DNA of 13,153 nt, taken from NCBI GenBank assembly GCA_021788415.1, contig JAJYKR010000009.1, positions 1 to 13,153 of the forward strand, read 5' to 3'. Origin of the DNA: an archaeon (lineage in GTDB: Archaea; Thermoproteota; Nitrososphaeria; Nitrososphaerales; UBA183). The translations under genes and the position numbers were made by a program. Under the pieces are notes generated by a model. The model was not told the DNA's origin, made no database searches, and saw nothing but the letters and a program-made list of their open reading frames with translations. Below, piece after piece: positions 1-11,165 of the stretch; position 1 is the first letter of the stretch, and every line of letters begins with the position of its first letter.

Positions 1-790
1 GGACCTTTCGCCCCCTGGCACTCTGAACTTGGACGGGAAGACGGCGTTCACTGGGGAGATAGAAGAGCACCTGGTCGACGAGAAGATCGACTTCGCGGTC
101 CATAGCATGAAGGACCTTCCTCCGATTCCTGACGACAGGCTGACGGTCGCAGCTACTCCCCGCAGAGGGGACGCCAGGGACGCCCTTGTGACCACCTCAG
201 GAGAGAAATTCGCCGCCCTGAGAAAAGGGGCCAGAGTGGGGACCTCGAGCGCGAGGAGGAAGGCCCAGATCCTTGCCGCGAAGAAGGACGTCGAGGTGAT
301 TGAACTGCATGGAAACGTCGAGACCAGGCTCAGGAAGCTGGAGGCAGAGGCGCTCGACGGGGTAGTCCTCGCTGCCGCAGGGCTGCAGAGGCTTGGCCTG
401 GGGTCGAGGATAACTCAGGTCTTTGAACCTGGCGAAATGGTCCCCGCGCCGTGCCAGGGGATTCTCGCTGTGCAGGCCAGGAGGGGAGACAGGAAGGTCG
501 TCGCGCTGCTCAAGAAGATCGATGACCCCGCTGCGAGACTGGCCAGTGAGTGCGAACGCGCCTTTTCCGAGGCACTGGGTGGAGACTGCGATGTGCCCCT
601 GGGTGCCTTTGCCAGCCTGGGCCCCGAAGGGTTGACGGCGATCGGGGTCCTGGCATGCCCTGACGGCTCGGAGATCGTGAAGATTTCGGCAACTGGAGGT
701 CGAGGAAAGGCGAAGGAGCTCGGACGCGAACTTGCCTCCAAGGTGTTCGCTTCGGGGGGCGGTAAGATCCTCAGGAAGTTGGAAGGATGA
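1..790 (+). CDS. hemC: Hydroxymethylbilane synthase (porphobilinogen deaminase), 5' end missing
   Basis: Polymerises four porphobilinogens into hydroxymethylbilane in the cytoplasm. The reading frame is open from base 2 to the left edge, so the gene is cut by the window; 262 residues are visible, and about 40-50 N-terminal ones are missing relative to the usual ~300. The catalytic aspartate lies in VHSMKDLP (Asp codon 113-115). The arginine-rich substrate-binding stretch GTSSARRKAQ and the HGNVETRLRKL segment follow. The cysteine that anchors the dipyrromethane cofactor is in GGDCDVPLGA (Cys codon 587-589). The stop codon overlaps the hemD start as ATGA. It is the first visible gene of the heme operon; any promoter and a possible hemA lie outside the window. 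Identification is secure; only the N-terminus is unknown. Confidence 0.96.
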   Translation, partial: DLSPPGTLNLDGKTAFTGEIEEHLVDEKIDFAVHSMKDLPPIPDDRLTVAATPRRGDARDALVTTSGEKFAALRKGARVGTSSARRKAQILAAKKDVEVIELHGNVETRLRKLEAEALDGVVLAAAGLQRLGLGSRITQVFEPGEMVPAPCQGILAVQARRGDRKVVALLKKIDDPAARLASECERAFSEALGGDCDVPLGAFASLGPEGLTAIGVLACPDGSEIVKISATGGRGKAKELGRELASKVFASGGGKILRKLEG

Positions 791-1542
791 CCAATAGTGG
801 AACGGAGGTCGTGGTGGCGAGATCGCGAGAAGGTAACGTGGAGCTGAAGCGGATGCTGTCCAGGCGGGGAATCGAAGCAGGTTCTGTCGAGGCGATCGGG
901 TTTGAAGATCCTGAATCCTGGGCTGCGGTCGATTCGGCGATTGCCAACATCTCCCGCTTCGATTGGGTCGCGTTCACATCGCCGAGGGCTGTGGCCGCTT
1001 TCGGGAGGAGGCTGAAGGCTCTGGGAATGGACGCGGAGGAGCTCGGCCCGAGATTCGCGGCCGTCGGGTCGAAGACTGAATCTGCCCTGCAGGAGATTGG
1101 GATCGAGCCCGAATACGTCCCCTCGGAGTTCCTGACGTCGGCCCTAGGCGAAGGGCTGCCCGCCAAGGAGGGGTCGCGCGTCCTTCTCATGCGGGCGGAC
1201 ATTGGTGACAGGAGCCTGGCGGAGTCGCTCGGAAGGCGGGGCATCGAGGTCGAAGAGGTGGCGGCGTACCATACAATGTTCGTCCCGGGCCCGGTCGAGT
1301 CCGATCTGATGAGAAAAGCCAGGGTAATAGCCTTCGCGAGCCCTTCGGAGGTCGAGGGCTTCCGCCGGAGGCTTGGCAGGTCTGAGTTCAGGGAACTCAC
1401 CGGAAGGGCGACGGCTGCCTGCATAGGGCCAGTCACGGCACGCGCCGCGAGCCGTGCAGGGTTCAGGTCGGTCGTGTTCGCGAAGGAGCACACGCTCGAA
1501 GCCCTGGCCGAAAAGATCGGGGAGATGATGGTAGATGCTTGA
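787..1542 (+). CDS. hemD: Uroporphyrinogen-III synthase
   Basis: Cyclises hydroxymethylbilane with inversion of ring D to give uroporphyrinogen III. The 251-residue product has the usual family length. HemD is poorly conserved, but the hallmarks are present: FDWVAFTSPRAVAAF at about residues 57-71, a second-lobe segment around GSRVLLMRADIGDRSL, then ARVIAFASPSEVEGF, and the C-terminal ATAACIGPVTARAASRAG. The ATG shares ATGA with the hemC stop, preceded by a GGAAGG ribosome-binding sequence inside hemC, which decides the start. Its 3' end overlaps hemB by 8 bases. Position directly after hemC and before hemB strongly supports the call. No oddity was seen. Confidence 0.95.
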   Translation: MTNSGTEVVVARSREGNVELKRMLSRRGIEAGSVEAIGFEDPESWAAVDSAIANISRFDWVAFTSPRAVAAFGRRLKALGMDAEELGPRFAAVGSKTESALQEIGIEPEYVPSEFLTSALGEGLPAKEGSRVLLMRADIGDRSLAESLGRRGIEVEEVAAYHTMFVPGPVESDLMRKARVIAFASPSEVEGFRRRLGRSEFRELTGRATAACIGPVTARAASRAGFRSVVFAKEHTLEALAEKIGEMMVDA

Positions 1543-2527
1543 AGGGCAGCGCTTCAGGATAGAGAACAGGGCGCGCCGCCTCAGGAGGACCGAGTCCATC
1601 CGCAGGATGCTAAAAGAGACCCGGCTTCACCGGGACATGCTGATCGTCCCGGTCTTCGTGACCGAAGGGAAGCACAGGGTCGAGGAGATTGACGGCATGC
1701 CGGGGGTGTCGCGCTATTCCATCGACGAGCTCCCCCCGTACCTTGAGAGGCTCACCGGACTCGGGCTCCGGAGCATTCTCCTGTTCGGCGTCCCCGACAG
1801 GAAGGACGAGGGGGGGACCGGGGCCTACGCCAAGGAAGGAGTCGTCCCAAGGACTCTGGCTGCGGTCAAGCCGAGCTTCCCTGAGCTCGTCGTGATGGCT
1901 GATGTGTGCATGTGCGAGTACACCTCCCACGGCCACTGCGGAGTCCTGTCGGGCGAGGATGTGGACAACGACAAGACCCTCCCTCTCCTTGCAAGGGCGG
2001 CGGTCGAATACGCCAGGGCGGGAGCCGACGTCGTCGCACCGAGCGCCATGATGGACGGCCAGGTGCTCGCGATAAGGAAGGCCCTCGAAGAAGCAGGGAT
2101 GGAGGACGCGGTTGTGATGGGGTACTCGGCGAAGCACGCCTCTGCCTTCTACAAGCCATTCAGGAACGCTGCGGGCTCCGCCCCTTCCTTCGGGGACAGG
2201 CGCAGCTACCAGATGCAGCCGGGGAACAGGAGGGAGGCGATGAGGGAGATACGGCAGGACATCGTGGAGGGGGCGGACATGGTCATGGTGAAGCCGGCCC
2301 TCGCCTACCTGGACGTAATATCGGAGGCGAGGAGGAATTTCGACCTCCCTCTGGCCGCGTACAACGTCAGTGGGGAGTACTCGATGATCAAGGCTGCATC
2401 CCTCAACGGATGGCTCGACGAGAAGCAGGCGGTGCAGGAGGTGCTGACCGGGATAAGGCGCGCGGGTGCTGACCTCATCATAACCTACTTCGCCGAGCAG
2501 GCTGCGGAGTGGATGGAGGGGTGGTGA
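1535..2527 (+). CDS. hemB: Delta-aminolevulinic acid dehydratase (porphobilinogen synthase), zinc type
   Basis: Condenses two 5-aminolevulinates into porphobilinogen. The 330 residues match the family length. The two Schiff-base lysines are Lys200 (MGYSAKHAS) and Lys253 (MVKPALAYLD). Three cysteines, Cys125, Cys127 and Cys135, in DVCMCEYTSHGHCG form the catalytic zinc site, so this is a zinc-dependent rather than magnesium-only enzyme. The C-terminal AAYNVSGEYSMIKAA is the substrate-binding segment. The ATG at 1535 lies inside the end of hemD (8-base overlap), indicating translational coupling. Its TGA overlaps the next start by one base (TGATG). The call is secure. Confidence 0.98.
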   Translation: MLEGQRFRIENRARRLRRTESIRRMLKETRLHRDMLIVPVFVTEGKHRVEEIDGMPGVSRYSIDELPPYLERLTGLGLRSILLFGVPDRKDEGGTGAYAKEGVVPRTLAAVKPSFPELVVMADVCMCEYTSHGHCGVLSGEDVDNDKTLPLLARAAVEYARAGADVVAPSAMMDGQVLAIRKALEEAGMEDAVVMGYSAKHASAFYKPFRNAAGSAPSFGDRRSYQMQPGNRREAMREIRQDIVEGADMVMVKPALAYLDVISEARRNFDLPLAAYNVSGEYSMIKAASLNGWLDEKQAVQEVLTGIRRAGADLIITYFAEQAAEWMEGW

Positions 2528-3243
2528 TGGAGGAGCACGCGGCCAGTGAACCTCCTGAAGAACAAGGGAAGAGGAAGCTCATGCGCTACGTCTTCTTCAA
2601 GGCCGGTAGAGAGTGGAGGTCCCTCGGCGAGAAAGAGAAGTCGCAGGGGGCGAGCGAGGCCCTGGGGGTCCTCGAGAAGCACTCCCGGACCCTCGACGTC
2701 CGCACCTACAGCCTCGTGGGTACCCGCGGGGACGTCGACTTCATGCTCTGGGTCGTAGCTGAGGACCTGGCGCCGATTCAGGAGTTCGTCGCGGAGCTGC
2801 TCTCCACGGGGCTCGGCAAGCACCTGGACGTCCCTCACTCGTTCCTGGCGATGACCAGGAGGTCGAAGTACCTGGGCTCGCACACGCATCCTGGCCAGGA
2901 GGGGGAGGGGGACGAGGGGACGAGGAGGAAGTACGCTTTCGTCTATCCGCTGGTGAAGAAGAGGGAGTGGTACAAAGTCCCCTTCGTGGAACGACAGAGG
3001 ATAATGGCCGAGCACTTCAAGATCGGCCACAAGTACCCGTCCATCAAGATCAACACAGGCTATTCCTTCGGGCTCGACGACCAGGAGTTCGTCCTCGCCT
3101 TCGAAGGGGACGACCCCGCCGAGTTCCTTGAGCTGGTGGAGGAGCTGCGGTCCTCCGACGCGAGCAAATACACCGAACGGGAAACCCCGATATTCACCTG
3201 TGTGTCGGTGGACCCCCGCACGATGGTCAGACTCCTGGGATAG
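2527..3243 (+). CDS. hemQ: Chlorite-dismutase-family protein, probable coproheme decarboxylase
   Basis: Expected to convert Fe-coproporphyrin III to heme b by two oxidative decarboxylations (HemQ/ChdC). From the ATG at 2527 it has 238 residues; an in-frame GTG at 2509 would add six but run deeper into hemB, and the TGATG junction favours 2527. The C-terminal half carries the family pattern: Tyr140 in FVYPLVKKREWY aligns with the catalytic tyrosine of coproheme decarboxylases, Lys144 follows four residues later, His163 in IMAEHFKIG is the proximal heme ligand, and YSFGLDDQEFVLAFEGDD is the beta-strand segment after it. The distal position next to INTGYSF appears aliphatic, not the arginine of true chlorite dismutases, so chlorite detoxification is unlikely. 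It sits between hemB and hemL in the heme operon, which supports a heme role. Residue alignment was done by eye. Confidence 0.88.
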   Translation: MEEHAASEPPEEQGKRKLMRYVFFKAGREWRSLGEKEKSQGASEALGVLEKHSRTLDVRTYSLVGTRGDVDFMLWVVAEDLAPIQEFVAELLSTGLGKHLDVPHSFLAMTRRSKYLGSHTHPGQEGEGDEGTRRKYAFVYPLVKKREWYKVPFVERQRIMAEHFKIGHKYPSIKINTGYSFGLDDQEFVLAFEGDDPAEFLELVEELRSSDASKYTERETPIFTCVSVDPRTMVRLLG

Positions 3244-3252
3244 CGTGGGCGC

Positions 3253-4542
3253 ATGGAACAGGGGAAGTCGGCGGACCTCTTCAGGCGGGCCTCCGGGGTC
3301 ATGGTCGGAGGCGTCTCCAGCCCGGTCAGGGCGTTCAAGTCGGTAGGCGGGACGCCGAGGTTCATCGCCAGGGGGAAGGGGGCCAGCATATGGGACGAGG
3401 ACGGCAACAGTTACACCGACTACGTCTGCTCCTGGGGGGCGCTGATACTCGGCCACGCCGACAGGAGGGTGCTGGCTTACGTGACCGCGAAGATGAAGAA
3501 GGGGACGAGCTTCGGCGCCCCCACAAAGGAGGAGATCCTCCTCGCCGAGAGGATTCGTGCATCCTTCCCTTCCGTCGACAAAGTGCGCTTCGTGAACTCC
3601 GGGACCGAGGCGACCATGTCCGCCCTGAGGGCTGCGAGAGGGTTCACAGGGCGGTCGAAGATGGTGAAGTTCGAAGGGTGCTACCACGGCCACGCTGACC
3701 AGTTCCTCACCAGGGCGGGATCAGGGATGGCAACCCTGGACCTCCCAGCCTCAGCGGGGGTGACGGATGGCTCGGTGGCAGACACCGTGACTCTGCCGTT
3801 CAACGACCTGGAGGCCGTCGAGGCGGAGTTCAGCAAGGAGGGAGGGAAGGTCGCGTCGGTGATAGTGGAACCAGTGGCTGGCAACATGGGGGTCGTCCCC
3901 CCGGCGGACGGGTTCCTCCGCCTGCTGAGGAAGAAGTGCACGGACGCCGGTGCCGTGCTGATATTCGACGAAGTGATCACAGGGTTCAGGGTCGGACCCG
4001 GAGGCGCCCAGGAGCTCTACGGGGTGGAACCGGACCTCACGACCCTGGGGAAGATCATAGGGGGAGGCTTCCCGGTCGGCGCTTACGGCGGGAGGAAGGA
4101 GATCATGGAGATGGTGGCTCCCGAAGGGCCGGTGTATCAGGCAGGGACCCTGTCAGGGAACCCGGTGGCCATGGCTGCAGGGCTGAGGACCCTGGGACTG
4201 CTCGGTCCGCGGGAATTCGGCACCCTGGAGAGGCGGTCGAAGGCCCTGGCGGATGGGCTGGAGTCGGGCGCTGCCAGAGCGGGGGTCGACCTGCGCATCA
4301 ACAGGGTCGGGTCGATGGTGGGGCTCTTCTTCTCAAAGCGCCCGGTGGGGAACTACGCCGAGGCGAAGAAGGCCGACCCGGAGGCGTACCGCGCCTTCTT
4401 CTGGAAGATGCTCGAGTCAGGGGTGTACCTCGCCCCGTCCGCCTACGAGACCGCCTTCGTCTCCCTTGCCCACCGTGCGGACGCCATCGAAGCGACCGTG
4501 GCCCGGGCGGGCAAGGCGTTCAAGGAGATGGGCGGCAGATGA
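3253..4542 (+). CDS. hemL: Glutamate-1-semialdehyde 2,1-aminomutase
   Basis: PLP/PMP enzyme that converts glutamate-1-semialdehyde to 5-aminolevulinate, the last step of the C5 route to tetrapyrroles. The product has 429 residues, as usual. The N-terminal VGGVSSPVRAF, FVNSGTEATMSALRAARG (about 113-130), EGCYHGHAD, the PLP-binding IFDEVITGFR (about 237-246) and the Schiff-base Lys267 in LGKIIGGGFPVGAYGG are all intact, as is YQAGTLSGNP. The ATG follows the hemQ stop by nine bases, and the stop overlaps hemE as ATGA. Its presence implies the glutamyl-tRNA pathway rather than ALA synthase; the partner reductase hemA is not in view and may lie upstream of hemC. Confidence 0.98.
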   Translation: MEQGKSADLFRRASGVMVGGVSSPVRAFKSVGGTPRFIARGKGASIWDEDGNSYTDYVCSWGALILGHADRRVLAYVTAKMKKGTSFGAPTKEEILLAERIRASFPSVDKVRFVNSGTEATMSALRAARGFTGRSKMVKFEGCYHGHADQFLTRAGSGMATLDLPASAGVTDGSVADTVTLPFNDLEAVEAEFSKEGGKVASVIVEPVAGNMGVVPPADGFLRLLRKKCTDAGAVLIFDEVITGFRVGPGGAQELYGVEPDLTTLGKIIGGGFPVGAYGGRKEIMEMVAPEGPVYQAGTLSGNPVAMAAGLRTLGLLGPREFGTLERRSKALADGLESGAARAGVDLRINRVGSMVGLFFSKRPVGNYAEAKKADPEAYRAFFWKMLESGVYLAPSAYETAFVSLAHRADAIEATVARAGKAFKEMGGR

Positions 4543-5564
4543 GCAGCGCATTCGTGGACGCCTGTCGCATGAAGCGGGTGGACCGGACGCCGGTCTGGTT
4601 CATGCGCCAGGCCGGGAGGTACCTGCCCAGCTACAGGAAGCTGAGATCCGAGAAGGGAATCCTCGAGATAGCGAAAGACCCGGAGCTCGCTTCCGACGTC
4701 ACTGTGGACCCGGTGAGGCAGCTGGGGGTGGACGCGGCCGTAATGTTTGCCGACATAATGCTCCCTCTCGAAGGCGTCGGGGTGAAGTTCAGGATTGAAG
4801 AGAACCTGGGACCGGTCGTAGATAACCCGATCAGGAGCAAGGAGGACGTCGAGCGCCTGGGGGAGTTCGACCCGGAGAGCCACGTCGGCAACGTCCTCCG
4901 CACCATCTCCCTGGCGACGGAGAAGCTGGACGGCGTCCCGCTCGTAGGCTTCTCGGGGGCGCCGTTCACTCTGGCGAGCTACCTCATAGAGGGCGCTCCT
5001 AGCCGGGAGTTCCGCCTCACGAAGAAGATGATGTATTCCGATCCTGAGACGTGGAAGCTCCTGGAGTCTCGGCTGACGGAGCTTGTCGTGAAGTATCTGA
5101 GGGCCCAGATCAGGCAAGGGGTGAGCGCGGTGCAGCTCTTCGACAGCTGGGTCGGGTGCCTGTCCCCGGCCGATTACTCGGCCTACGTCAAGCGCTACAG
5201 CACCGAGATATTCAGGGGGGTCGGGAAGAAGGTCCCGGCGATACACTTCTGCGCAGACTCGTCCTCCCTTCTCGAGGAGTTCGCGGAGACGGGGTGCGAC
5301 GTCCTGAGCGTCGACTGGAGGGTCCCCATCGAGACCGTGTGGGAGCGGAGCGGAGGGAAGAAGGGCGTCCAGGGGAACCTCGACCCGGCAGCGGCAGCGG
5401 CCGGGGGCAGGGTGATGGAGAAGGGGGTGGAGGAGATTCTCCGGAAGACTTCGGGGAGGAGGGGGCATGTGTTCAACCTGGGGCACGGGGTGCTCAGGGA
5501 GACGCCCCCCGAGAATCTGAAGCAGATAGTGGACGTGGTGCACAGGAGCGCGGGGAGGAAGTGA
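4539..5564 (+). CDS. hemE: Uroporphyrinogen-III decarboxylase
   Basis: Decarboxylates the four acetate side chains of uroporphyrinogen III to give coproporphyrinogen III. The frame is open far upstream into hemL, but the ATG at 4539, overlapping the hemL stop as ATGA, gives 341 residues, the usual length. Signature one is WFMRQAGRYLPSY (Arg23 and Arg27 bind the propionates), Asp72 in FADIMLP is the catalytic aspartate, signature two is GFSGAPFTLASYLIEG with Tyr148, and the conserved histidine is His316 in FNLGHGVLRETPPEN. The last motif has Arg where most relatives have Pro (GHGxLPETPxEN). The stop overlaps hemH as GTGA. HemE commits the pathway to coproporphyrinogen, which the siroheme-dependent archaeal heme route does not need. 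Confidence 0.98.
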   Translation: MSSAFVDACRMKRVDRTPVWFMRQAGRYLPSYRKLRSEKGILEIAKDPELASDVTVDPVRQLGVDAAVMFADIMLPLEGVGVKFRIEENLGPVVDNPIRSKEDVERLGEFDPESHVGNVLRTISLATEKLDGVPLVGFSGAPFTLASYLIEGAPSREFRLTKKMMYSDPETWKLLESRLTELVVKYLRAQIRQGVSAVQLFDSWVGCLSPADYSAYVKRYSTEIFRGVGKKVPAIHFCADSSSLLEEFAETGCDVLSVDWRVPIETVWERSGGKKGVQGNLDPAAAAAGGRVMEKGVEEILRKTSGRRGHVFNLGHGVLRETPPENLKQIVDVVHRSAGRK

Positions 5565-6460
5565 AGGGGATCCTCGTAATGGCCTACGGAGGGCCCTCGT
5601 CCCTGGATCAGGTGGAGTCCTACTACACCCACATCAGAAGAGGGACGAAGCCTTCGCCGGAGCAGCTCGAGGACCTGGTCTCGAGGTACAGGGCCATAGG
5701 CGGCTCGTCCCCGCTGCTTGGGATCACGGAGAGACAGGCGGCCGGCCTGGAGAGCGCCCTTCGGGAGAGGGGCGGGGCGAAGGTCTTCGCAGGGATGAAG
5801 CACTCTCCCCCGTTCATCGCGGACGTGGTGAAGGAGGCGAGCGCCAGCGGGGTGACCGAGCTGCTCTGCATCGCCCTGGCCCCCCACTATTCTAGCATCA
5901 GCATCGGGGGGTACGCCAGGGCGGTCGACGAAGGGAACCAAAAGCTTGGTGCCCCAATGAAGGTCAGTTTCGTGAAGTCCTGGCACAGGAACCCGAGGAT
6001 GATTTCGATGTGGGCAAGCCGCGTCAGGGAAGCGGGCAAGGCCGCAAGCTCGGACGCGTCCCTGGTCTTCTCTGCCCACAGCCTCCCGGAGCGGATCATC
6101 AGGGAGGGGGACCCATACAGGGACCAGCTGTTGGAGAGCTCCGGGCTCATCGCAAGCGAGGCGGGATGGAAAGACTGGAGCTTCACGTTCCAGAGCCAGA
6201 GCAAGACGGGGGAACCCTGGCTCGGCCCCGACATACTGGACCATCTCGAGTCCCTCTACGAAAAGGGGGAGAGAAAGTTCATCTCCGCCCCCATCGGCTT
6301 CGTCTCGGACCACCTGGAGATTCTGTACGACATTGACATCGAGGCCAGGGGATGGGCCAGGGAGCGCGGGGCTGAGCTTGTCAGGTGCAAGTCCCCCAAC
6401 GACTCTGCAGAGATGATAGACTCCCTAGTCGAGATCGCGGAACAGAACGGGTTCGCCTAG
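5561..6460 (+). CDS. hemH: Ferrochelatase, coproporphyrin-type (CpfC-like)
   Basis: Inserts ferrous iron into a porphyrin. The GTG at 5561, sharing GTGA with the hemE stop, gives 299 residues beginning MKGILVMAYGG; the upstream open frame is only a shadow of hemE. The catalytic pair is present: His173 in SAHSLPERI and Glu253 in GFVSDHLEILYD. Tyr9 in MAYGG aligns with the metal-facing Tyr13 of the Bacillus subtilis enzyme, and YYTHIRRG and FTFQSQSKTGEPWLGPDI also resemble that soluble monomeric type. There is no C-terminal membrane or iron-sulfur extension. With hemQ in the same operon, the likely substrate is coproporphyrin III rather than protoporphyrin IX. This is the last gene of the overlapping cluster. 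Confidence 0.95.
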   Translation: MKGILVMAYGGPSSLDQVESYYTHIRRGTKPSPEQLEDLVSRYRAIGGSSPLLGITERQAAGLESALRERGGAKVFAGMKHSPPFIADVVKEASASGVTELLCIALAPHYSSISIGGYARAVDEGNQKLGAPMKVSFVKSWHRNPRMISMWASRVREAGKAASSDASLVFSAHSLPERIIREGDPYRDQLLESSGLIASEAGWKDWSFTFQSQSKTGEPWLGPDILDHLESLYEKGERKFISAPIGFVSDHLEILYDIDIEARGWARERGAELVRCKSPNDSAEMIDSLVEIAEQNGFA

Positions 6461-6550: not shown

Positions 6551-7720
6551 TTGGCCGGGGATTCGACGAAGTCTGTCCACGAGTCCGAGCCCCTGGACGC
6601 GCAGACGGGCTCGATCACAGTGCCGATCTACGAGACCTCAACTTTCGGCTTCAGGAGGGCCGAAGACGTCCCCAAAGCTGTCGCAGGGTTCGGCGAAAAG
6701 GGGTACACCTACTCCAGGTGGGAGAACCCGACGGTCGTCGCCCTCGAAAAGAAGATCGCCGCGATGGAGCGCGGGGACGAAGGTTCGGCTTTCTCCTCGG
6801 GAATGGCTGCGATATCGACTGCCGTCTTCGCATTCCTGAAGAAGGGGACCCATGTGCTCGCCATCAAAGACCTCTACGGCGGCACCTACGGGCTCCTGCA
6901 CGACATCCTGCCTGAGATAGGGTTCTCCGCCGACCTCGTCGACACAGAGGACTCCGCCCTGGAAAGGGGGATGAAGAAGAGCACGGGCATCGTCTACATC
7001 GAGAGCCCCACCAACCCGACCATGAAGCTGGTGGACATCCCGAGGGCGGCCAGGCTCGCCCACAAGAACGGAGCGGTCCTGATGGTGGACAACACCTTCG
7101 CATCCCCAATCAACCAGAACCCCATCGACCTTGGGGCCGACGTCGTCCTCCACAGCGTGACGAAGTACATCAACGGCCATGCGGACCTCATCGCAGGGGC
7201 GGCGGTGGCCGACAGGGCGAAGACCCACACGATCAAGATGAGGAGGAGGGAGTTCGGAGGGACGATGGACCCCTTCCCCGCCTGGCTCATCCTCCGCGGC
7301 ATGAAGACGATGGCCCTGAGGGTGCGTCAGCAGAACGCCAACGCCATGGCCCTCGCGGAGTTCCTGTCGACCCACAGGAAGGTGAAGGCGGTGCACTATC
7401 CGGGGCTGAAGACCCATCCACAGCACCAGCTGGCGAGGAGGCAGATGAAGGCCTTCGGCGGGATGCTGAGTTTCGAGATCAAGGGGACGACGAAGGACGC
7501 CATGCGCTTCACGGAGTCGGTGAAGGTGGCGACCCTCGCAGCGAGCCTGGGAGGGGTCGAGACCTTGGTGTCCCAGCCCTACAACATGACCCACACGCAG
7601 ATGTCTGCCAAGGCGAGGGCCGAGACAGGCATCCCTGAGACCCTGGTGAGGGTTTCGGTGGGCATCGAGGATCCGGAAGACCTGGTCGCTGACTTCAAGC
7701 AAGCACTAGGGGCCGCGTAG
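6551..7720 (+). CDS. Cys/Met-metabolism PLP enzyme (cystathionine gamma-synthase/gamma-lyase family)
   Basis: Fold-type I PLP enzyme of transsulfuration, acting on cystathionine, O-acyl-homoserine or a related substrate. The product has 389 residues. Family marks: TVPIYETSTF, then YSRWENPT (Tyr54 and Arg56 bind the phosphate of the partner subunit's PLP), SSGMAAIS, Tyr109 in DLYGGTYGL stacking on the cofactor, Asp180 in VDNTFASP, and the Schiff-base Lys205 in HSVTKYINGH. The cysteine typical of methionine gamma-lyases near Tyr109 is absent, so gamma-synthase, gamma-lyase or a homoserine sulfhydrylase are the choices; sequence alone does not separate them. TTG at 6551 is the only sensible start: an in-frame stop lies at 6497 and the next ATG is at 6764. 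Its last 26 bases overlap the convergent tiaS. Confidence 0.93.
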   Translation: MAGDSTKSVHESEPLDAQTGSITVPIYETSTFGFRRAEDVPKAVAGFGEKGYTYSRWENPTVVALEKKIAAMERGDEGSAFSSGMAAISTAVFAFLKKGTHVLAIKDLYGGTYGLLHDILPEIGFSADLVDTEDSALERGMKKSTGIVYIESPTNPTMKLVDIPRAARLAHKNGAVLMVDNTFASPINQNPIDLGADVVLHSVTKYINGHADLIAGAAVADRAKTHTIKMRRREFGGTMDPFPAWLILRGMKTMALRVRQQNANAMALAEFLSTHRKVKAVHYPGLKTHPQHQLARRQMKAFGGMLSFEIKGTTKDAMRFTESVKVATLAASLGGVETLVSQPYNMTHTQMSAKARAETGIPETLVRVSVGIEDPEDLVADFKQALGAA

Positions 7721-8876
7721 GCGCGGACTCGAGCCACCCTGTCATGGGCGCGGCCCGCGTGCGGTCCTCCCTCCCGTACCTGGTCAACGGCTTCGTGAGA
7801 TGCCTGTTGGCCCGAGGGGACGAGATGTAGGTCCCCTTTGGAAGGGAGCCCTTCGACTTCAGCTGGAACTTCTCCATGTTGAGGACCGACGGGTGCAGCG
7901 ACGTGCCCCGCCTGACACCGCCGAACGCCCTGATCCTGTCCCCGGGATGGAGGAGCCTCGCGGTCCTCCTCAGGTCCCCCGTCGGCTCGTACGCCGCGGC
8001 GATCCGGGTCCTCCCCTCTGCGTTCAGGACCACGTACACGTGCCCTCCTGTCCCGGTGCTCACAGAATCGACCGTGCCATCGACCCACCCTGACGAGTAG
8101 ACCTTCCAGAGGAGCGGCTTCTGGAGGTGGGCGTCCGTGTGCTGGTTGGAGAGGTAGATTATGTGGCCCTGCAAAGGCTCGTCAATCCTCAGCATATGGA
8201 AAGCATCGGACACGCTCCGCGGGGAATCCCCCCTAATGCCGCAGAACACCGGGTCAGGGCCGTGGGGGGCGATGAGGACCTTCCTCTTCTGGTAGTCGTA
8301 GTTGTTGATCGTGTGGGGGAACGTCTTCGAGTCCATCTCTCTGACGGAGGCGCTGTCCACCGTGCGCCTGGTCTCCCAGAACTCCTTGCGCCTGTAGGCG
8401 ATCAGCTCGAATGTGTGGTCGGACCGGTCGGAGAAGCCAATGCAGCTCGCTGCTCCGACGATCCCCATCCCGTTCCCGAGCTCGAATGACTTCGCCCCGA
8501 CGCTCCGGAGGAGCTTGCGGACCCTGTGCGGGCTCACCATTCCTCTGAGAGCCTCGAGGTAGAGCAGCTCGAACTCGCGGGAGCTCCTTTCCACGAGCAC
8601 CATCCCGGAGTTCGCTCCCCCCTCCACGTCCGAGAGCTCGCTCACCTTTTTCGAGACCGATTCGAACACGGCCCCCGAATCTTGGCCTTCGACCTCCAAG
8701 CACACCGCGGCGTTGCCTCTCGTCTTGAACGGGATGTTGGGGTTGAGCCTGACCAGTCGTGGATAGGGGAGGACCTTCACTTCCGGGCCGAGGTCGGCCG
8801 CGATGCGAAATGCGAGGTAGGTCGTGCACCACCCCCGGGAAGAGTCGGTGTCGTCGATGCCTACGAGGAAACGCAC
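7695..8876 (-). CDS. tiaS: tRNA(Ile2) 2-agmatinylcytidine synthetase, without a C-terminal zinc ribbon
   Basis: Attaches agmatine to C34 of tRNA(Ile2) using ATP, so that the CAU anticodon reads AUA. It is found in archaea. The 393-residue product begins FLVGIDDTDS, then GWCTTYLAF with Thr18, aligned with the autophosphorylated Thr of the Archaeoglobus enzyme, followed by RLVRLNPNIPFKTRGN (about 40-55). The ferredoxin-like middle ends with PHTINNYDYQKRKVLIAPHGPDPVFCGIRGD (two adjoining motifs, about 187-217). An OB-fold follows (about 254-345, with GTVDSV and PGDRIRAFGGVR), then the tail SSPRANRHLTKPL. The protein has only four cysteines (17, 59, 145, 212) and none after residue 212, so the four-Cys zinc ribbon of the Archaeoglobus enzyme is absent. 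The start is GTG with a TATA-like box about 26 bases upstream. The end overlaps the upstream plus-strand gene by 26 bases. Confidence 0.94.
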   Translation of the reverse strand: MRFLVGIDDTDSSRGWCTTYLAFRIAADLGPEVKVLPYPRLVRLNPNIPFKTRGNAAVCLEVEGQDSGAVFESVSKKVSELSDVEGGANSGMVLVERSSREFELLYLEALRGMVSPHRVRKLLRSVGAKSFELGNGMGIVGAASCIGFSDRSDHTFELIAYRRKEFWETRRTVDSASVREMDSKTFPHTINNYDYQKRKVLIAPHGPDPVFCGIRGDSPRSVSDAFHMLRIDEPLQGHIIYLSNQHTDAHLQKPLLWKVYSSGWVDGTVDSVSTGTGGHVYVVLNAEGRTRIAAAYEPTGDLRRTARLLHPGDRIRAFGGVRRGTSLHPSVLNMEKFQLKSKGSLPKGTYISSPRANRHLTKPLTRYGREDRTRAAPMTGWLESAPTRPLVLA

Positions 8877-9411: not shown

Positions 9412-9933
9412 ATGCTCGGAGTTTTCGCCCTCGAGATGGGGCAGGACGACCCGACGAAGTGCACCGCCCGGAAGATGATCAACATGGGCCTGGCCAGGGG
9501 GGTGAGCAGGAAGTTCCACGCATCGGACAAGGTGATAGTTCTCAACCCCTGGGCACACCGGATGCTCTCCCCTCCCGACAGGGTGGCGAAGTCGGTCCTC
9601 GTCGTCGACGCTTCGTGGAACCTGGCCCAGGAGGTGTTCTTCAGGAAGCTCGGAGGGAAGCACAGGCGGCTCCCAGTGCTGCTTGCGGCCAACCCGACCA
9701 ACTACTCCAGGGCGGGGGTGCTTAGCTCCCTCGAGGCTGTGGCGGCGACGATGTACATCCTAGGGGAGGTGGAGGAGGCCTCTCGATACCTTTCTATCTA
9801 CAAGTGGGGCCCGAACTTCATCACCCTGAACCAGGAGCCCCTGGAGTCGTACCGAAAGGCGCGCACAGAAGGGAAGGTCATCCAAGCCCAGAGGGAGTAC
9901 TTCCCTCAGCTTTTCGAGCAGGCAAGCGTTTAA
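9412..9933 (+). CDS. tsr3: Tsr3 (DUF367), small-subunit rRNA aminocarboxypropyltransferase
   Basis: Transfers the 3-amino-3-carboxypropyl group of S-adenosylmethionine to a hypermodified uridine of small-subunit rRNA during ribosome maturation. It is conserved in archaea and eukaryotes. The 173-residue product has the family marks in order: DDPTKCTARK (about 12-21), VLNPWA, VLVVDASWN (62-70), RRLPVLLAANPTNYSRAGVLSSLEA (two adjacent motifs, about 85-109), and YKWGPNFITLN (130-140). The VVD-x-SW motif has Ala where many relatives have Cys. The ATG at 9412 is preceded by an in-frame TGA at 9403-9405, so the start is fixed. The stop codon TAA lies inside the TATA box of the RNase P RNA gene that follows. 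Confidence 0.94.
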   Translation: MLGVFALEMGQDDPTKCTARKMINMGLARGVSRKFHASDKVIVLNPWAHRMLSPPDRVAKSVLVVDASWNLAQEVFFRKLGGKHRRLPVLLAANPTNYSRAGVLSSLEAVAATMYILGEVEEASRYLSIYKWGPNFITLNQEPLESYRKARTEGKVIQAQREYFPQLFEQASV

Positions 9934-10514: not shown

Positions 10515-11165
10515 CTACCACTGCTCGAGATAAATGACGCCCATCCCGCTGACGCTCAACGAGACAGGATGCATGGGAAGTAACAGGCCAACCGGATTGA
10601 TGAGCGGCCCGAAATCCGAACCGCTCACATCCGAGGCGGCGTGCCCTACCGCCATGGGGAGTGAGTCGAAGGTGAAATACGGGACGGAGTTGCTGTAATA
10701 ACCGGTCGAGTTGGCGAGAGCAGTTATGGTGTAGAGGACTACCACGTAATCAGAGTAGGCCGTGAGGTTGACGGTTGCGGGGAGAACACTGACCTCGAAG
10801 GCGTTGGAAACGTCGGGCCAGCACCCATTTGATGCACATTGCTCGTTGGCCACGTCGAACGGGTAGAACTGATAGGGGCCGAAGGGCCTGCCGGGGGAGG
10901 CTGCCCAGTCGTAGAGGGGGTCCCCTTTCCAATAGGTCTGGTAGGTCACGCATGCGTAGGCGGTGGTGCCTGGTTGCATGAGGAGAACAGGGATCATGTG
11001 TGTGTCGCTGGGCTGCACGACGCTGTCCCCGCATGGTTGGACCGCGCTGCTCGTGGTTGAGGTTGTCGTCTGAGTCTTGCGAGAATTCACGCCAAACCAG
11101 TATCCCGTGCTGGCTCCAGCAACGACGAGTGCGATGAGGAGTACAGCGACCGTTGTATTTCTCAT
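10515..11165 (-). CDS. Secreted or membrane-anchored protein of unknown function
   Basis: A 216-residue protein. Residues 6-25 form a hydrophobic segment (VAVLLIALVVAGASTGYWFG) after a short basic start, a signal peptide or N-terminal anchor. A Thr/Ser-rich linker follows (about 32-42, TQTTTSTTSS). The remaining ~170 residues are rich in Tyr, Val, Pro and Ser with few charges and four cysteines (45, 72, 109, 114), a composition typical of an exported beta-rich domain. Cysteine spacing would allow two disulfides. No catalytic motif is evident and I do not recognise the family. The ATG has a TATA-like box 26 bases upstream, so it is probably transcribed separately from rad50, which lies 96 bases upstream on the same strand. 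Its stop is 24 bases from the end of the convergent small gene. Confidence 0.8.
   Translation of the reverse strand: MRNTTVAVLLIALVVAGASTGYWFGVNSRKTQTTTSTTSSAVQPCGDSVVQPSDTHMIPVLLMQPGTTAYACVTYQTYWKGDPLYDWAASPGRPFGPYQFYPFDVANEQCASNGCWPDVSNAFEVSVLPATVNLTAYSDYVVVLYTITALANSTGYYSNSVPYFTFDSLPMAVGHAASDVSGSDFGPLINPVGLLLPMHPVSLSVSGMGVIYLEQW

Follow-up and report, generated by a model that had tools for sequence, protein, structure and literature searches.

By which route would a Nitrososphaerota archaeon make its heme b? The question is raised by a stretch of 13,153 nucleotides of contig JAJYKR010000009.1 (assembly GCA_021788415.1), hereafter called the window, which opens with seven heme biosynthesis genes in the order hemC-D-B-Q-L-E-H, all on the + strand between positions 2 and 6460. 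These genes overlap or nearly touch: neighbouring frames share 1-8 bases, with a 9-base gap between hemQ and hemL as the sole exception, and the frames of hemD, hemB, hemQ, hemL, hemE and hemH contain no internal stops. Their identities were established by Pfam and NCBIfam profile searches, in which HemE, HemH, HemL and HemC exceed the curated cut-offs of the named models. The earlier sequence-only reading, which had placed hemE, a CpfC-like hemH and a HemQ/ChdC-like gene in one overlapping operon with hemC, hemD, hemB and hemL, is borne out by these matches and by the coordinates (Table 1). The gene content, order, conservation and active-site residues described below point to the synthesis of heme b by the coproporphyrin-dependent route, a reading to which a probability of about 0.86 is given. 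The substrates and activities of the enzymes are predicted from their sequences.

According to this reading, HemL, HemB, HemC and HemD would make uroporphyrinogen III (hemA being located upstream in relatives), and HemE would decarboxylate it to coproporphyrinogen III. An activity encoded outside the operon would oxidise this intermediate to coproporphyrin III, into which HemH (CpfC) would insert iron, and HemQ (ChdC) would use peroxide to convert the resulting coproheme to heme b. In relatives, the oxidation could be performed by HemY or by a small CopD/HemJ-like membrane protein replacing CgoX, both encoded near a radical S-adenosylmethionine (radical-SAM) enzyme of the TIGR04053 family.

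The active-site residues of HemQ carry a large part of this interpretation. Tyr141 of the window protein aligns with the catalytic Tyr of all three bacterial HemQ records used, at a position occupied by Ile or Val in both chlorite dismutase records. The same Tyr is present in the HemQ of 25/25 Nitrososphaeria-type, 47/47 mostly Thermoplasmata and 3/3 Chloroflexota operon loci, as well as in 30/30 class-wide sequences, which are the best 30 of 198 matches (L165 being an operon copy) in a sample of 250 genomes whose class was taken as Nitrososphaeria. Five loci (L026, L055, L074, L075 and L078) fell in none of these alignment groups, the 47 mostly Thermoplasmata rows include L030 and L072, both titled otherwise, and L011 groups with Nitrososphaeria yet is titled 'bacterium'. 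The window HemQ also has the proximal His and the actinobacteria-type distal His, the latter being shared by 25/25, 45/47 and 3/3 sequences of the same three groups and by 1/30 class-wide sequences. No Arg was found at the distal position of chlorite dismutases in the window stretch SIKINTG, aligned with NVKRKLYHSTG of the two chlorite dismutase records, a result resting on one MAFFT alignment because class-wide rows have in places Arg or another residue one aligned column earlier. The roles of these residues are those given in passages of PMC7611857. Among PDB sequences, the five scoring highest against the window HemQ are all coproheme decarboxylases.

A comparable picture is obtained for HemH, in which Tyr9, His173 and Glu253, named in the sequence-only reading, were recovered by residue alignment. 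These residues are found in coproporphyrin ferrochelatases, where a proximal Tyr or Phe is accompanied by His and Glu; the proximal residue is Tyr in the CpfC of Firmicutes, Phe in that of actinobacteria and Met in human ferrochelatase, according to passages of PMC10427985. Tyr9 is kept in 58 of the 63 archaeal HemH loci and His173 in all of them; Glu253 is kept in 62, the remaining locus having a gap. The solved chains scoring highest against the window HemH are short bacterial ferrochelatases, several of which are named coproporphyrin III ferrochelatase.

The operon is not restricted to this contig. A scan of species genomes with the HemQ alignment confirmed 120 stretches; the 80 that scored best were kept, so that the loci are chosen by HemQ. 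The gene order of each of these 80 was obtained with tblastn, a number of contigs ending inside the operon: B-Q-L was found in 71 loci, Q-L-E in 69, Q-L-E-H in 56 and Q-E-H in eight, with hemA immediately upstream of hemC in 55. Most loci are titled Nitrososphaerota/Thaumarchaeota or Thermoplasmata, a few come from differently named soil archaea, and three (L036, L051 and L063) from Chloroflexota with a different order, Q-E-H-C-A-B-L. Among the matches listed, the first named one is 82% identical for HemQ and 84% for HemH, and the named ones are mostly Nitrososphaerota/Thaumarchaeota metagenome genomes. The hemH gene lies on the opposite strand in L002, L038 and L070. In L002, the inverted HemH at the end of the operon (13.1-14.0 kb, - strand) is about 36% identical to the window protein, the other operon genes reaching 70-85%, which has the appearance of a replacement in place.

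The oxidation step is where the set departs from its bacterial model. Neither CgoX nor CgoN was found in the window, and known oxidases were sought in 40 related draft genomes carrying the loci (37 taken as archaeal and three titled Chloroflexota) rather than in the window's own genome. CgoX/HemY exceeded its cut-off in four of these 40, one copy (G024) containing in-frame stops, and was not found over cut-off in the other 36; some match was seen in 28, with partial model coverage in all except those four. Searches for HemF, HemJ (PF03653) and CgoN gave 0/40 each, no search for HemG being made. HemN_C exceeded its cut-off in three genomes, all Chloroflexota, and in 0/37 archaeal ones, two of which have sub-cut-off matches. 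Curated AhbD (TIGR04545) was over cut-off in 0/40 although 38 genomes have some radical-SAM match, AhbA-C not being searched there. The sequence-only reading had equated the set with the coproporphyrin-dependent route of monoderm bacteria; this holds for HemE, the Tyr-type ferrochelatase and HemQ/ChdC, and the match is not full because CgoX/HemY is under cut-off or unfound in 36/40 genomes. The genomes of the three Chloroflexota loci likewise have no over-cut-off HemY/CgoX, and the oxidase gap may thus not be archaeal only.

The radical-SAM protein provides a lead to this missing step. A near full-length AhbD-like protein is encoded in 17/40 genomes with scores of 190-289 bits, for an AhbD cut-off of 500, and the four such proteins tested against TIGR04053 all exceed the cut-off of that family. 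In the class sample, HemQ was found in 198 genomes and HemH in 20, and over-cut-off matches were obtained in 12 for HemY and in 31 for TIGR04053. Eleven of the 12 HemY genomes have no HemQ, G020 having both, and all eleven carry TIGR04053 on the same contig at most 3.4 kb from hemY (within the 1.5-kb flanks in nine); the copy of one of them, G070, is split in two frames and falls below cut-off. Locus L237, from a genome without HemQ, reads hemL-hemE-hemH-rSAM-hemY, its hemY and radical-SAM genes exceeding NCBIfam cut-offs and its hemE and hemH Pfam cut-offs only. In the HemQ-less L237 and L238 (G087 and G093), the hemE-hemH-rSAM-hemY arrangement includes a divergent ferrochelatase, which in L237 also matches Pfam CbiX. 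TIGR04053 also stands beside hem genes and other radical-SAM genes in L288, L289, L291, L293 and L294. In the two of these that were scanned, L288 and L293, AhbB is over and AhbA just below cut-off, and in L288 a uroporphyrinogen methyltransferase also exceeds its cut-off, with an AhbC/NirJ-like protein scoring below cut-offs. In both the siroheme and the coproporphyrin route, the last step leads from coproheme to heme b (passages of PMC8305020), and TIGR04053 is assigned to this step for that reason. We propose that it is an oxygen-independent coproheme decarboxylase, the counterpart of HemQ.

Beside this radical-SAM gene lies a candidate for the oxidase itself. A CopD-like protein of about 160 amino acids adjoins it in 11/40 genomes (G002, G006, G009, G016, G019, G021, G023, G024, G026, G037 and G040), the radical-SAM copy of G024 being broken, and in four operon loci (L016, L019, L038 and L070) the pair is located beside hemH or hemE. 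A CopD match at E 0.01 was obtained in 22 genomes, of which 14 were counted, with short HemJ-like frames; G008, G010, G018 and G038 (weak and unlike in sequence) and G025, G027, G028 and G030 (long frames) were left out, and G037 was counted though just under the Pfam cut-off. HemY or the short CopD-like protein occurs in 15/17 radical-SAM genomes and in 1/23 without radical-SAM, both together being present in G020 and G024 only; the sets for the Fisher tests on co-occurrence were compiled by hand from search tables, and the p-values overstate independence because the genomes are related. In the class sample, a strong CopD-like match (>180 bits) was found in 12 genomes, ten of which have TIGR04053 over cut-off, adjacent in nine.

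When the CopD-like family was compared by profile with eight HemJ proteins, the alignment ran nearly end to end over 136 columns, with a probability of 55-71% and about 20% identity. The controls gave 0.2% for the reversed profile, 37% for the best of 120 shuffles and at most 3.3% for 11 other families, hydrophobic except for one non-membrane family (HemD). PF03653 was absent from the 25 families listed (of 43) for 29 CopD-like members. The records of two HemJ-like genes adjoining hemE give the label 'CopD family protein', and the predicted structure of the CopD-like protein is a confident four-helix bundle with no informative structural match. These comparisons are suggestive of a relationship to HemJ. 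It is put forward tentatively, as an idea somewhat on the doubtful side, that the four-helix protein oxidises coproporphyrinogen III, probably passing electrons to a quinone, and pairs with TIGR04053 as an oxygen-independent branch parallel to HemQ, HemY and the CopD-like protein being interchangeable beside the same radical-SAM gene. Genomes with neither HemY nor the CopD-like protein may rely on another enzyme or on air, in which coproporphyrinogen oxidises to some degree (passages of PMC10965808); aerobes might then need no enzyme for this step.

Outside the operon, HemQ-like proteins are widespread in the class, and 183 of the 198 genomes encoding them have no HemH that was found. These genomes presumably include ammonia oxidisers. 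A 2023 review (PMC10432482) describes as unknown the function of the chlorite dismutase-like enzymes that occur in many ammonia-oxidising archaea, and an earlier genome paper asked for heme genes of ammonia oxidisers with such proteins (PMC4010524). The presence of the HemQ Tyr in the best 30 of the 198 class matches favours heme synthesis over oxygen production.

As to how the operon came to this archaeon, the sequence-only reading had offered either an old archaeal version or a transferred operon. A recent bacterial transfer would agree with the description of the pathway as almost exclusively Gram-positive in passages of a 2023 review (PMC10427985), with the related genes, in their other order, of the three Chloroflexota loci, and with the HemH tree (47 rows), in which the HemH of the Nitrososphaeria loci L002, L014 and L018 clusters with Chloroflexota. 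This clustering points to a replacement of hemH in place. In the same tree the window belongs to a starred set of seven whose six other members are Nitrososphaeria. The HemQ tree has 75 rows; a starred branch separates 41 of them, all from operons of Nitrososphaeria, Thermoplasmata, soil archaea and Chloroflexota, from the class-wide HemQ and the three bacterial HemQ. Here too the window falls within a starred set of Nitrososphaeria rows. This double nesting, the identical order in two archaeal groups and the archaeal neighbouring genes make a recent transfer quite unlikely, and the isolated transfer that the sequence-only reading had allowed for is not upheld, since the order recurs in Nitrososphaerota and Thermoplasmata loci. 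The operon may be the product of an old transfer or of an exchange between archaeal groups; the quick trees, with few and long bacterial rows, leave the deeper origin unrooted and therefore fix neither direction nor age.

The other alternatives concern the pathway. A protoporphyrin-dependent route, with both oxidases encoded elsewhere in the genome and another role for HemQ, would accommodate the four relatives with HemY over cut-off, and HemG lay outside searches that covered the relatives' genomes; it is very unlikely given the absence of HemF, HemJ and archaeal over-cut-off HemN_C from these genomes, the Firmicutes-type Tyr of HemH and the location between hemB and hemL of a HemQ with the ChdC Tyr. 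That HemQ could be a chlorite dismutase or a general peroxidase outside heme synthesis is suggested by its membership of Pfam Chlor_dismutase and by the public records, which name its relatives so. This is hardly credible for a protein which has the ChdC Tyr without the Arg aligned with that of chlorite dismutases, lies inside a heme operon and scores highest with coproheme decarboxylases.

Several observations nevertheless weigh against the coproporphyrin-dependent reading. The window HemQ scores 132 bits with the curated HemQ_actino model (NCBIfam), for a cut-off of 235, and is therefore a family member and not a curated equivalog; in 29 class-wide loci (among L137-L166) HemQ does not adjoin hem genes. 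Tyr9 is replaced or gapped in 5/63 archaeal HemH (two Leu, two Val and one gap). The operon itself has no coproporphyrinogen oxidase gene, and 24/40 operon genomes yielded no HemY and no short CopD-like protein, 22 of them having no radical-SAM protein either; these 24 include the nearest relatives, G001 and G003 (0.9 Mb, probably incomplete). The likeness to HemJ is weak, with PF03653 in 0/40 genomes and a profile probability of 55-71% when one shuffle reached 37%, and in two genomes that carry the radical-SAM/CopD-like pair, G067 and G225, neither HemH nor HemQ was found.

Table 1. Features of the window, with their positions and supporting profile matches
Feature	Position	Strand	Profile evidence
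hemC, hydroxymethylbilane synthase	2..790, 5' end cut by window start	+	TIGR00212 256 bits, Porphobil_deam 190 bits
hemD, uroporphyrinogen-III synthase	787..1542	+	PF02602 (HEM4) 164 bits
hemB, porphobilinogen synthase	1535..2527, stop overlaps hemQ start	+	PF00490 (ALAD) 478 bits
hemQ/chdC, predicted coproheme decarboxylase, chlorite-dismutase family	2527..3243, ATG, 238 aa	+	PF06778 (Chlor_dismutase) 189 bits
hemL, glutamate-1-semialdehyde aminomutase	3253..4542	+	TIGR00713 593 bits (cut-off 527)
hemE, uroporphyrinogen decarboxylase	4539..5564	+	TIGR01464 406 bits (cut-off 303), Pfam URO-D 391 bits
hemH/cpfC, predicted coproporphyrin ferrochelatase	5561..6460, GTG, 299 aa	+	TIGR00109 226 bits (cut-off 125), Pfam Ferrochelatase 269
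Cys/Met-metabolism pyridoxal-phosphate (PLP) enzyme, downstream of operon	6551-7720		profile match
TiaS	7695-8876	-	domains over Pfam cut-offs
Tsr3-type protein	9412-9933		over Pfam cut-off

The archaeal neighbours tiaS and tsr3, already named from the sequence alone, were confirmed by these matches, and the contig is therefore archaeal. A frame of 216 amino acids (10515-11165, - strand), flanked by the Tsr3-type and Rad50-like genes and judged by eye to have a signal-like N-terminus, gave no match in a Pfam search at E 0.001.

The pathway itself is known, the novelty residing in a conserved archaeal operon and in the possible HemJ-like replacement of CgoX. A literature search found no paper describing the operon in Nitrososphaerota; it may be mentioned in the main 2017 review, which lay outside that search. 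In a 2024 survey covering 2,978 archaeal genomes (PMC11459464), the complete route is reported for a single Hydrothermarchaeota genome and for some Halobacteria, and the operon recurs in two archaeal groups beyond these. Surveys may overlook it because one enzyme is unassigned.

With the pathway of Firmicutes and Actinobacteria (HemE, CgoX, CpfC and ChdC), the operon shares the clustering of HemE, a CpfC with Tyr, His and Glu and a ChdC with the catalytic Tyr. It differs by its archaeal host, by the absence of CgoX from the operon and, over cut-off, from 36/40 relatives, and by the combination of an actinobacteria-type distal His in HemQ with a Firmicutes-type Tyr in HemH. Thermoplasma and Picrophilus similarly have hemE and hemH without hemF/N or hemG/Y, a route called 'currently unclear' in passages of Storbeck 2010 (PMC3004389); here hemQ accompanies them in one operon in another phylum, the order being also found in Thermoplasmata-titled loci, and the gap of 2010 now has a testable gene candidate. 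The radical-SAM part is not new in kind, since an AhbD gene adjoining hemY/hemH/hemQ was already described (PMC10548856, in a passage citing Dailey 2015). Those clusters likewise place a radical-SAM coproheme decarboxylase gene among genes of the coproporphyrin route, whereas the present one is of the TIGR04053 subfamily, under the curated AhbD cut-off and often paired with the CopD/HemJ-like membrane protein. This last protein resembles the protoporphyrinogen dehydrogenase HemJ/PgdH2 as a small helical membrane protein aligned by profile over most of its length, and is distinguished from it by its low identity, by the absence of PF03653 matches and by its position next to a radical-SAM gene rather than hemE. 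On a Halomicrococcus plasmid (L234), hemH, a hemG-labelled protoporphyrinogen oxidase and hemE lie close together with ABC transporter genes. Haloarchaea, finally, have for one last step both a peroxide-type ChdC (PitA) and the radical-SAM enzyme AhbD; according to passages of PMC5746218 and PMC8305020, Haloferax volcanii is devoid of uroD, cgoX and cpfC, whereas HemE and CpfC are both present here.

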